A DNA stretch of 64,000 nt from Ruminococcaceae bacterium R-25. Lineage in GTDB: Bacteria > Bacillota > Clostridia > Saccharofermentanales > Saccharofermentanaceae. The notes beneath the pieces were generated by a model. The model worked only from the letters and a program-made list of their open reading frames with translations. It was not told the origin of the DNA and did not search any database. Location of the stretch: the NCBI GenBank assembly GCA_003149065.1, contig QGFZ01000001.1:62001-126000 (forward strand). Reading direction: 5' to 3'. Below, one piece after another: positions 7,491-52,916 of this stretch. Made by a program: the position numbers and the translations under genes. Position 1 is the first letter of the stretch. The number at the start of each line of letters is the position of its first letter.

Positions 7491-7748
7491 TTACGTACTA
7501 AAAATCCATTTTCCCGGATTAGTACGTAGTTTGCGCGCTGCAATTCGCGTTCTTTGCAACGATTTACGGACTGATTTATTGTTTTCGAAAATTAGTACGT
7601 AAAAAAGCTGCATCAGACCGGCCAGAACCTCAAAAAATACGGACTAAAAATGGATTATTGAAAACTAGTACGTAAATTCAGCCTTCAGTGATGCCACATC
7701 CTGAAAAATTTACGGACTAAAAAAACTATTCCGCATTTTAGTCCGTAA
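7491..7748 (+). repeat. Periodic hairpin array, locus 2 (4 units)
   Basis: Left arms start at 7491, 7564, 7637 and 7710; right arms at 7519, 7592, 7665 and 7738. The offset is exactly 28 bp in every unit and the step exactly 73 bp each time. The last unit has TTACGGACTAA paired with TTAGTCCGTAA, a perfect complement; the first has TTACGTACTAA with TTAGTACGTAG. So both the G-T and the G-G variants of the arm occur with matching partners. The array fills the whole gap between the convergent 3' ends of relA and rnjA, so no promoter is needed here. There is no U tract after the stems, so they are not ordinary terminators. Confidence 0.92.
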
Positions 7749-11296: not shown

Positions 11297-11556
11297 GAGC
11301 GGCAAAATGAGCGGCTATAGCCGTTCAAATAACCGCTCAAATTGGCATAATGGGCCAAAATGACGGTAAAACGGACGGCTATAGCCGTTCAAACCGCCGC
11401 TCGTTTTCTATACGGCACTTGATACGGCAGCTGCCATGCCAGTTGCCGTATTTTCGGGCGTTTTTGGCTAAAAATATGGCGTTCGATATGGCTACTACCG
11501 CATTGACTGCCGTGTTTACAGGTCATTTCGACCCAAAACACGGCATTTAATAAGGC
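11297..11556 (+). repeat. Cluster of four-box 42-bp palindromes
   Basis: Four 42-bp dyads share one geometry: 7-bp box, 5 bp, 7-bp box, 4 bp, inverted box, 5 bp, inverted box. They span 11297-11338 (GAGCGGC boxes), 11361-11402 (GGACGGC boxes), 11410-11451 (ATACGGC boxes) and 11474-11515 (ATATGGC boxes). A half copy (ACACGGC at 11538, ATAAGGC at 11550) follows. In every case the two boxes on a side are 12 bp apart. Centres are 64, 49 and 64 bp apart. Box sequence varies between copies while spacing stays fixed. The cluster lies upstream of the proS promoter and is unrelated in sequence to the arrays at 2.3, 7.5 and 19 kb. Apart from it, 11217-11603 contains nothing I can assign. Confidence 0.8.
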
Positions 11557-11603
11557 AGCAACCCGATCATCCGCCCTATCCATTACATTCATTTTCAAGG
11601 AAA

Positions 11604-19040: not shown

Positions 19041-19370
19041 TTACGTACTAAAAATGTTTTTTCAAGTATTAGTACGTAAATTTCTCGCCTTTTACAGAGT
19101 TCGCCTATAAAATTACGTACTAAAATTGCTTTTTTGAGGATCAGTACGTAATTTTCGCTTCTTTAATAGTGCCTGCCAAACGAAATTACGTATTAAAAAA
19201 TGATTTTTGAAAATTAGTACGTAATTTCAGTGGCTTAAAAAGCTTTTGCCTAATAAAATTACGGACTAATAAAGCTTTTTCGAAATTTAGTACGTCAAGA
19301 TTATGTATTAGAATGATTTGAAGTTCTAAACCGACGGACTAATCATTCAGTTTACATTTTTAGTACGTAA
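19041..19370 (+). repeat. Periodic hairpin array, locus 3 (5 units)
   Basis: Left arms start at 19041, 19113, 19186, 19259 and 19332; right arms at 19069, 19141, 19214, 19287 and 19360. Offset is 28 bp in all five; steps are 72, 73, 73 and 73 bp. Units 1-3 carry the TTACGTACTAA form of the left arm, units 4-5 the GGAC form. In unit 2 the pairing extends through AAAATTACG and CGTAATTTT on the outside. It fills the gap between the convergent permease and araC-type genes, in the same orientation as the arrays at 2.3 and 7.5 kb. The spacers (33-34 bp) are not alike. Confidence 0.93.
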
Positions 19371-24772: not shown

Positions 24773-24835
24773 TTTTTTGGGCAGTTTTATAATTGTAATC
24801 ACTCAAATCAAGTAGTATATTTTGGGCGACAAACG

Positions 24836-24990
24836 GAAATCGGGGAGCTTTAAAAAGCTGAGAGGGATCAAACATCCGACCCGCTGAACCTGACGGATAA
24901 TGCCGGCGTAGGGAACCTTATATATATTCATTTTGGCCTCCTGTAATTGGTGTGATCTAAAAGGATCAGAAATCCATTTGACGGAGGTGT
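24836..24990 (+). promoter_or_regulatory. TPP (thiamine pyrophosphate) riboswitch with SD-sequestering platform
   Basis: The aptamer runs from about 24836 to 24916: ACGGAAATCGGGGAGC, then GCTGAGAGGG, ACCCGCTGAACCTGA, GGATAATGCCGGCGTAGGGAA, all conserved THI-box elements in order. Downstream, CCTCC at 24937-24941 can pair with the ribosome binding site GGAGG at 24983-24987, so ligand binding probably blocks translation of the ORF at 24995. No U-tract terminator is seen between them. Confidence is very high for the aptamer and moderate for the mechanism. Confidence 0.95.
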
Positions 24991-52732: not shown

Positions 52733-52916
52733 CGAGCTCGGCACTGCTCACTATCGCAAGTTCGGTGCCGTTTTTCGAGCCCGGCACTGCTCACTATCGC
52801 AAATGCCCGAAAAAATGGCAAAAGCGATAGAAAATCGCCTTTTTCTATCGCATTCGCCCAAAAAAAGGCCGTTTGCGATAGCCAGAGGCTCTGGCGGCCG
52901 TAGGGGATGCGATAGC
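52733..52916 (+). repeat. GCGATAG-box repeat cluster
   Basis: Two 27-bp direct copies (52733-52759 and 52776-52802), 43 bp apart with one mismatch, each ending ACTGCTCACTATCGCAA. Further GCGATAG boxes occur at 52824, 52875 and 52910 and CTATCGC boxes at 52751, 52794 and 52845; 52824-52851 forms an inverted pair. CGGCAC (52739) can pair with GTGCCG (52765). The cluster fills most of the secG-rnr gap and matches neither of the other two repeat families. Confidence 0.8.

Follow-up and report, generated by a model that had tools for sequence, protein, structure and literature searches.

The window analysed here, a 64-kb stretch of the genome of Ruminococcaceae bacterium R-25 (C1:62001-126000 of a 3.07-Mb assembly in seven contigs, hereafter G000), contains three intergenic arrays that together hold thirteen 39-bp units, each composed of two inverted 11-bp arms (half-site TTACGKACTAA in this genome) whose starts lie 28 bp apart around a 17-bp loop, often with an A-tract (CGAAAA/TTTTCG) at the unit centre. 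The preliminary description of this DNA had listed thirteen such units, and all were refound with a pattern allowing up to three mismatches (13 places per strand); 100 dinucleotide shuffles of the window gave none. Array 1 (2275-2533; units at 2275, 2348, 2422 and 2495, steps of 73, 74 and 73 bp) lies between a minus-strand ORF without a Pfam match (start 2252) and recJ (2735, plus strand). Array 2 (7491-7748; units at 7491, 7564, 7637 and 7710, all steps 73 bp) separates a relA/spoT-type gene from the convergent RNase J gene, and array 3 (19041-19370; units at 19041, 19113, 19186, 19259 and 19332, steps of 72, 73, 73 and 73 bp), which alone occupies the interval first described, lies between a plus-strand 1139-aa ORF (an ABC permease by eye) and a convergent AraC-type regulator gene. 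Of the ten steps, eight measure 73 bp, one 72 and one 74, as originally reported. The claim that all three arrays share one direction carries little weight: the unit is almost symmetric, and among the units listed its CGAAAA/TTTTCG loop occurs in both orientations or is absent; we assign no strand to these arrays or to the two described next. Orthologs were found for all three: an array in G060 aligns with array 1 and has the same adjoining ORF start, array 2 is matched in G060 (four units) and G064 (three units), and array 3 in G064 (five units).

Palindromes with other arms are also present in the window. A second arm family, CTATCGC..GCGATAG, is represented by two 37-bp palindromes at 52794 and 52845 (52794-52881, step 51), which in the surrounding region (52751-52915) show long A-tract centres. 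The same family recurs at two more loci of G000, namely C2:769042/769094 (C2:769k, step 52) and C2:55164 (C2:55k, step 51); its control pattern matched once in this genome, and a further hit at C2:842818 is probably due to chance. A third kind of array (11313-11544) combines GGCTATAGCC dyads at 11313 and 11377, 64 bp apart, with 36-bp palindromes of the form GCCGTRTTT..AAAYAYGGC at 11445 and 11509, again 64 bp apart, so that the long intergenic gap at 11297-11575 has a 64-bp periodicity made up of both dyads and palindromes. The only Rfam family reaching its gathering score in the window is a TPP riboswitch at 24831-24931 (RF00059, 63.7 bits).

Across G000, the pattern at up to three mismatches finds 27 units, and its reversed control finds none. 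The preliminary description had raised random spacing of the two 11-mers elsewhere in the genome as the observation that would speak against it; with the gap left free between 8 and 38 bp, all 19 exact arm pairs have a gap of 17 bp (17 pairs) or 18 bp (two pairs). Beyond the window, arrays lie at C1:1106k (six units, one of them with four mismatches; steps 52, 52, 74, 52 and 52), C2:187k and C3:33k, a module at C4:55k has two units 180 bp apart, and an eighth array at C3:184k has three units with steps of 73 and 74 bp. This last array lies upstream of a 1314-aa ORF whose length and first residues suggest rpoB; a pair at C3:183940 had been considered as an autoregulated operator, and turned out to be this three-unit array. 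The proposed near-invariant period of 73 bp holds for the three arrays of the window; the genome as a whole also has one array stepped at 52 bp and one two-unit module at 180 bp. The genes next to the arrays, which serve housekeeping, transport or regulation, are unrelated to one another and include recJ, relA/spoT, RNase J, AraC, an ABC-type permease and CTP synthase, as well as a sodium symporter, a histidine kinase, RtcB and TetR. On a map of longest ORFs, which is not a curated annotation, four of the eight arrays lie between convergent ORFs, three between tandem ORFs and one in a divergent gap, and seven of the eight have one or more ORFs ending beside them. Several arrays come after what appears by eye to be a terminator.

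The same architecture is kept with different arms in relatives and at other loci of G000, the variants including TTACTTACYRR, TTACGTACC, CTACMGAC, GGGATAA and CTATCGC. Units of 40 bp with TTACGTACC..GGTACGTAA arms are confined to three of the 85 genomes of the genus (G007 with 16 places, G068 with 28 and G082 with five; control 0) and are stepped at 74 bp, with one array type at 63 and 84 bp, and 39-bp units of the form TTACTTACYRR..YYRGTAAGTAA occur in G007 and G068, mostly stepped at 73 bp and in part mixed into TTACGTACC arrays. The relA-RNase J gap, the site of array 2 in G000, carries CCTACMGACAA-type palindromes in G010, G066 and G072, TACAGACAAT palindromes at a step of 74 bp in G002, and GGGATAA palindromes at a step of 52 bp in G063. 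In G075 (L134) the same gap contains a mixture of GCATACC, GGACAC and GGTGAC palindromes without clear phasing, and in G007 (L135) it is filled, by eye, with small helix-turn-helix and PIN-type genes and has no palindrome array; the gap in G068, G069 and G082 resembles that of G007. Beyond the family, G271, from another family of the class, carries long arrays with ACGGAC arms stepped at 53 bp (L099, L109; four and three pattern matches, control 0). A single match in G261 was set aside as background, the reversed control having matched in seven genomes of that scan.

The steps of these arrays fall on multiples of one helical turn. Among 127 non-redundant pairs of neighbouring palindromes with like arms, drawn from all fetched DNA, centre distances cluster at 51-54, 61-64, 73-74, 84, 94, 104-106, 115.5 and 126 bp, with a few others (44.5, 60, 66.5, 68, 107.5, 108.5 and 124.5 bp). 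The vector strength is greatest at a period of 10.5 bp (R=0.86), and once the 73-74 class is left out the remaining 46 pairs peak at 10.5 bp as well (R=0.70), values that overstate independence since the pool contains dyads across linkers and arrays of common descent. Reduced to 15 hand-picked step classes, so that each combination of arm family and step counts once, the data fit best at a period of 10.45 bp, a fit reached by none of 3000 uniform simulations with a free period. The 15 classes exclude off-phase pairs at L034 (44.5 bp), L098 (60 bp), L120 (66.5 and 61 bp) and L075 (68 bp), which we took to be chance or miscalled (those at L034 and L098 are in coding sequence), and also omit unit-skipping and longer distances (104-126 bp), the mixed palindromes of G075, a possible 61-bp step at L049 seen by eye, and the 178-181-bp module. 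Palindrome pairs at 44.5, 60, 66.5 and 68 bp are off phase, the G075 palindromes fit poorly, and the 178-181-bp module corresponds only roughly to 17 turns. Shared ancestry weakens the pooled figures, and the stronger evidence is that steps of 51-54, 63-64, 73-74, 84 and 94 bp, or, restated as linkers, about 13, 23, 34, 44 and 55 bp, recur among unrelated arms. With the steps of several arm families all falling on multiples of roughly 10.5 bp, a platform for proteins along one side of the helix is supported, an arrangement that the first reading had suggested from the 73-bp period.

The linkers carry a helical signal of their own. Information content is 1.55-1.89 bits per position in the arms, 0.55-0.85 in the loops and 0.14-0.29 in the linkers, and yet the linkers of the genus arrays have in common an anchored wave of A/T and G/C with a period of about 10 bp. 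In the symmetrised profile of 44 linkers of exactly 34 bp, the A/T fraction starts from 0.95 at the ends, falls to 0.39-0.50 over positions 6-9, rises to 0.67-0.72 over positions 10-15 and drops to 0.32-0.33 at the centre. Against shuffles, the wave reaches z -9.1 at 10.5 bp and is strongest, among the periods tried, at 9.5 bp (z -10.4), in a set of 61 of 119 linkers from which lengths outside 33-35 bp and linkers more than 65% identical to a kept one had been dropped, and with four bases omitted at each linker end. Fourier analysis of the whole unit places harmonic 7 (10.4-10.6 bp) on top in two of three families (A and B2), and third in family B1, behind harmonics 6 and 10. The spacers were first described as unrelated, which is not entirely so: they share this wave, and some arrays elsewhere in G000 and in a related genome are copies of one another, linkers included.

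A wave of fixed phase and helical period is as in curved or wrapped DNA, and it raises the question of gyrase, for which the arrays could be wrapping sites of the BIME kind, the linker wave serving as the wrapping signal and the arrays absorbing the supercoils of transcription. Gyrase is a conserved enzyme, whereas the arms described here are sequence-specific, vary among lineages and change in concert (see below), and the 13-bp linkers of some arrays are too short for the gyrase arm. The dimensions and position are nonetheless suggestive: a 39-bp core is flanked by 34-bp linkers whose wave has a period near 10 bp, mostly near the 3' ends of ORFs. The arrays share with the Escherichia coli gyrase motif and BIME-2 gyrase sites (PMC6379681) a central core of some 36-39 bp bordered by a GC wave of 10-11 bp. 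In E. coli the central part of the motif (-16 to 19) lies between regions with a wave of 10.75 bp (the strongest linker period tried here was 9.5 bp), and gyrase sites are over-represented in BIME-2. On balance we regard a gyrase-wrapping function as improbable.

Folding of the arms as a single strand offers another explanation, in which the units would be structured RNA or single-stranded DNA hairpins acting as terminators, stabilisers of mRNA ends or recombination sites such as attC. Six pieces gave RNA folding z-scores of -1.1 to -3.8, showing that the units can fold, although such energies are uninformative, as any palindrome folds; the apparent terminators ahead of arrays and the compensated arm changes between lineages would also fit. 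Position 6 of the half-site, which takes G or T, is more telling. In 100 non-redundant units of family A (units more than 85% identical merged; up to four mismatches, which admits some TTACTTAC and TTACCTAC units), the pairs at this position are TA 51, TC 19, GA 19, GC 10 and TG 1; the two arms are independent (Fisher p=0.48 for the first four combinations), and a G.A or T.C mismatch is present in 38 of the 100 units, as independence predicts. The 45 units that can be oriented by their loop (TA 28, TC 10, GC 4 and GA 3) lean to pairing, but not significantly (odds ratio 3.7, p=0.18). The structured RNA allowed for in the preliminary description thus loses ground, and we judge an RNA or cruciform stem unlikely in family A, because the two arms vary at position 6 without regard to each other and linker lengths differ by whole DNA turns, holding the 10.5-bp phase of B-DNA. 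Moreover, the family A consensus has no T-run after the stem beyond the A/T-rich start of the linker, and at the window's arrays every Rfam family stays below its threshold. All 15 oriented units of family B2 have full complementarity over the first ten positions of their arms, so that a stem may form there. Overall, hairpins acting as RNA or as single-stranded DNA strike us as a very improbable account of the arrays.

Comparison of orthologs indicates which parts of the array are constrained. In arrays 1 (G000/G060) and 3 (G000/G064), substitutions affect 13 of 198 arm positions and 90 of 390 loop and linker positions (p=1.6e-7), such that arms diverge about 3.5 times less than loops and linkers. 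In the third set of orthologs, that of array 2, a higher conservation of the arms is not evident (2/88 in arms and 6/170 in loops and linkers for G000/G060; 0/66 and 7/119 for G060/G064), these sequences being too similar to tell. Arrays also move and change in size. A block of 333 bp is common to C21 and C4 of G060 at 97.3% identity, one of 210 bp to the C2 and C3 arrays of G000 at 96.7%, and array 2 has lost or gained units in register (four in G000, four in G060 and three in G064). Further, a 180-bp module of two palindromes stands before the same TetR-type ORF in G000, G060, G007, G068 and G069, and in G007 and G069 also at a second, unrelated locus. In this one orthologous module the arms are TTACGTACTAA in G000 and G060 and TTACCTACTAA in G007, G068 and G069, and, barring single departures, the change is found on both sides of both palindromes. 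In three loci (L038 8109-8360, L078 6652-6920 and L074 6048-6300), palindromes 180 bp apart form a module of about 250 bp together with ATACCCCCTGGGGGTAT or a close variant, a sequence that resembles a CsoR-type operator.

Such copying is also what would be expected of selfish, REP-like miniature mobile elements, whose arms would be read by a transposase, whose phasing would reflect the geometry of the transposase complex, and which would have no function for the host. The block copies in G060 and G000 and the duplicated module in G007 and G069 agree with this, as do arm families that differ between species, a pattern paralleled by the coevolution of REPs and RAYTs in the part of PMC2817692 drawn on here. 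Y1/RAYT transposases (PF01797), the only transposase family tested, occur in 21 of 85 genomes of the genus but are unmatched in 11 of 12 array-bearing genomes, and the matches in the twelfth, G068, are two of 22 positions in 69-residue frames, barely above the cut-off. RAYT mobilisation was accordingly rejected for G000, which has no PF01797 match, and the original view that the arrays are not RAYT-driven REPINs stands for this genome. The two copied pairs that were aligned have, by eye, neither constant ends nor a certain target-site duplication, and arrays 1 and 3 keep their arms while loops and linkers drift, unlike decaying selfish copies. We consider a purely selfish origin possible, if rather unlikely.

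At up to two mismatches, 11 of the 85 genomes of the genus match (one control match, in G047), G011 and G076 among them, with 41 units in G060; a scan of the family with the looser TTANNNACTAA form matches 11 of 115 genomes, all in one genus of five, its control matching once each in ten other genomes. Both scans combined give 12 array-bearing genomes. Nine of them fall in one subclade by RNase J identity (at least 94%), which also includes G072, G002, G075 and G073, genomes without these arms; of the bearers outside it, G011 and G076 have identities of 91% and 64%, and G009 has no RNase J gene match. Matching contigs are labelled as rumen Saccharofermentans or Ruminococcaceae MAGs, with a few given as Lachnospiraceae, Clostridiales, Clostridia or Paludibacteraceae, and those in G011, G076, L053 and L062 (the last two titled Paludibacteraceae or Lachnospiraceae) may be contamination from binning. 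The exact pattern occurs in no stretch of IMG/VR, and a blastn search with array 3 gave no phage or plasmid match.

Several known systems resemble these arrays in part. The closest working analogue, by position and behaviour, is the BIME/REP group, although we do not file the arrays there because the defining transposase is missing. REP/BIME elements and REPINs are likewise short intergenic palindromes, regularly spaced, species-specific and dispersed, as described in the consulted parts of PMC2817692 and PMC3733652. The arrays differ from REPs and REPINs in their 17-bp loop, their spacing by helical multiples, the presence of several arm families in one genome and the lack of a RAYT match in G000. 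They are dispersed, with 27 units in G000 at up to three mismatches and 41 in G060 at up to two, where PMC2817692 gives usually more than 100 copies for REPs; in the excerpted text of PMC3733652, on tagged REPs, the words Firmicutes and Clostrid- do not occur. A repeat of 39 bp and a spacer of 34 bp have the dimensions of CRISPR, but the repeat centre varies and linkers range from 13 to 55 bp, in place of the constant repeat and one-size spacer that define such loci. Similar in architecture are the PurBoxes of Bacillus subtilis PurR, where inverted half-sites 16-17 bp apart support cooperative assembly and DNA wrapping. PurR itself was rejected as the reader, as its PuR_N domain (PF09182) is absent from all 85 genomes of the genus (the control picked it up in all three of E. 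coli, B. subtilis and L. lactis, exceeding the cut-off in two of them), and no purine gene is among the flanking genes scanned. The sopC centromere of plasmid F also consists of tandem inverted-repeat units, bound by a partition protein, whereas the arrays lie at many dispersed chromosomal loci and have several arm families. The suggestion that this is an undescribed periodic element is in keeping with a literature search in which no title or abstract opening gives an account of such arrays, a result that is not proof of their absence from print.

We favour, with moderate confidence and from sequence features, a reading of the arrays as helically phased, double-stranded sites for a cooperative, DNA-bending candidate protein. 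Each 39-bp unit would be an operator-like site in double-stranded DNA, with a dimeric or tetrameric protein probably seated on both half-sites and bending the DNA between them; linkers of about 13, 23, 34, 44 and 55 bp would keep successive complexes on one face of the helix, and the A/T-G/C wave of the linkers would let the DNA curve round the assembly. The arrays would grow as whole units duplicate in tandem and spread as blocks are copied to other intergenic gaps, after which the arms would be conserved as loops and linkers drift, and in sister lineages the arms would switch together, as if the cognate protein had changed its specificity or been replaced by a paralogue. We infer a likely architectural or boundary role similar to that of BIMEs, in supercoiling or in the insulation of transcription ends, because seven of the eight arrays in G000 adjoin the 3' end of an ORF. 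The more specific proposal of a nucleoid-protein or nuclease platform is unproven: a search of 418 ORFs at 46 loci gave no cognate protein, and what recurs there is orthologous neighbourhoods and generic families only, such as ABC ATPases, response regulators and an Xre-type helix-turn-helix group. Four of the seven loci with the latter (L036, L041, L043 and L046) form a single orthologous neighbourhood; L040, L047 and L087 are grouped with them by the shared domain.

More broadly, and as a tentative possibility that we would put somewhat below an even chance, several lineages of Clostridia may carry intergenic platforms built on one blueprint, namely a half-site dyad with a bent centre that recurs at intervals of whole helical turns. 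Their arms would be interchangeable, each recognised by its own member of a putative protein family, and the platforms would organise or insulate the chromosome in a lineage-specific manner. The blueprint would be conserved while the arm code changes in concert across the genome. Helical phasing across arms that are unrelated in sequence is direct genomic evidence of an ordered protein-DNA assembly. If the cognate protein were found, the arrays would offer a system for following how the specificity of a binding protein changes jointly with dozens of scattered sites, and a test of whether bacteria mark the ends of genes or domains with wrapped DNA, and extragenic palindromes would be shown to spread and persist without a Y1/RAYT transposase.
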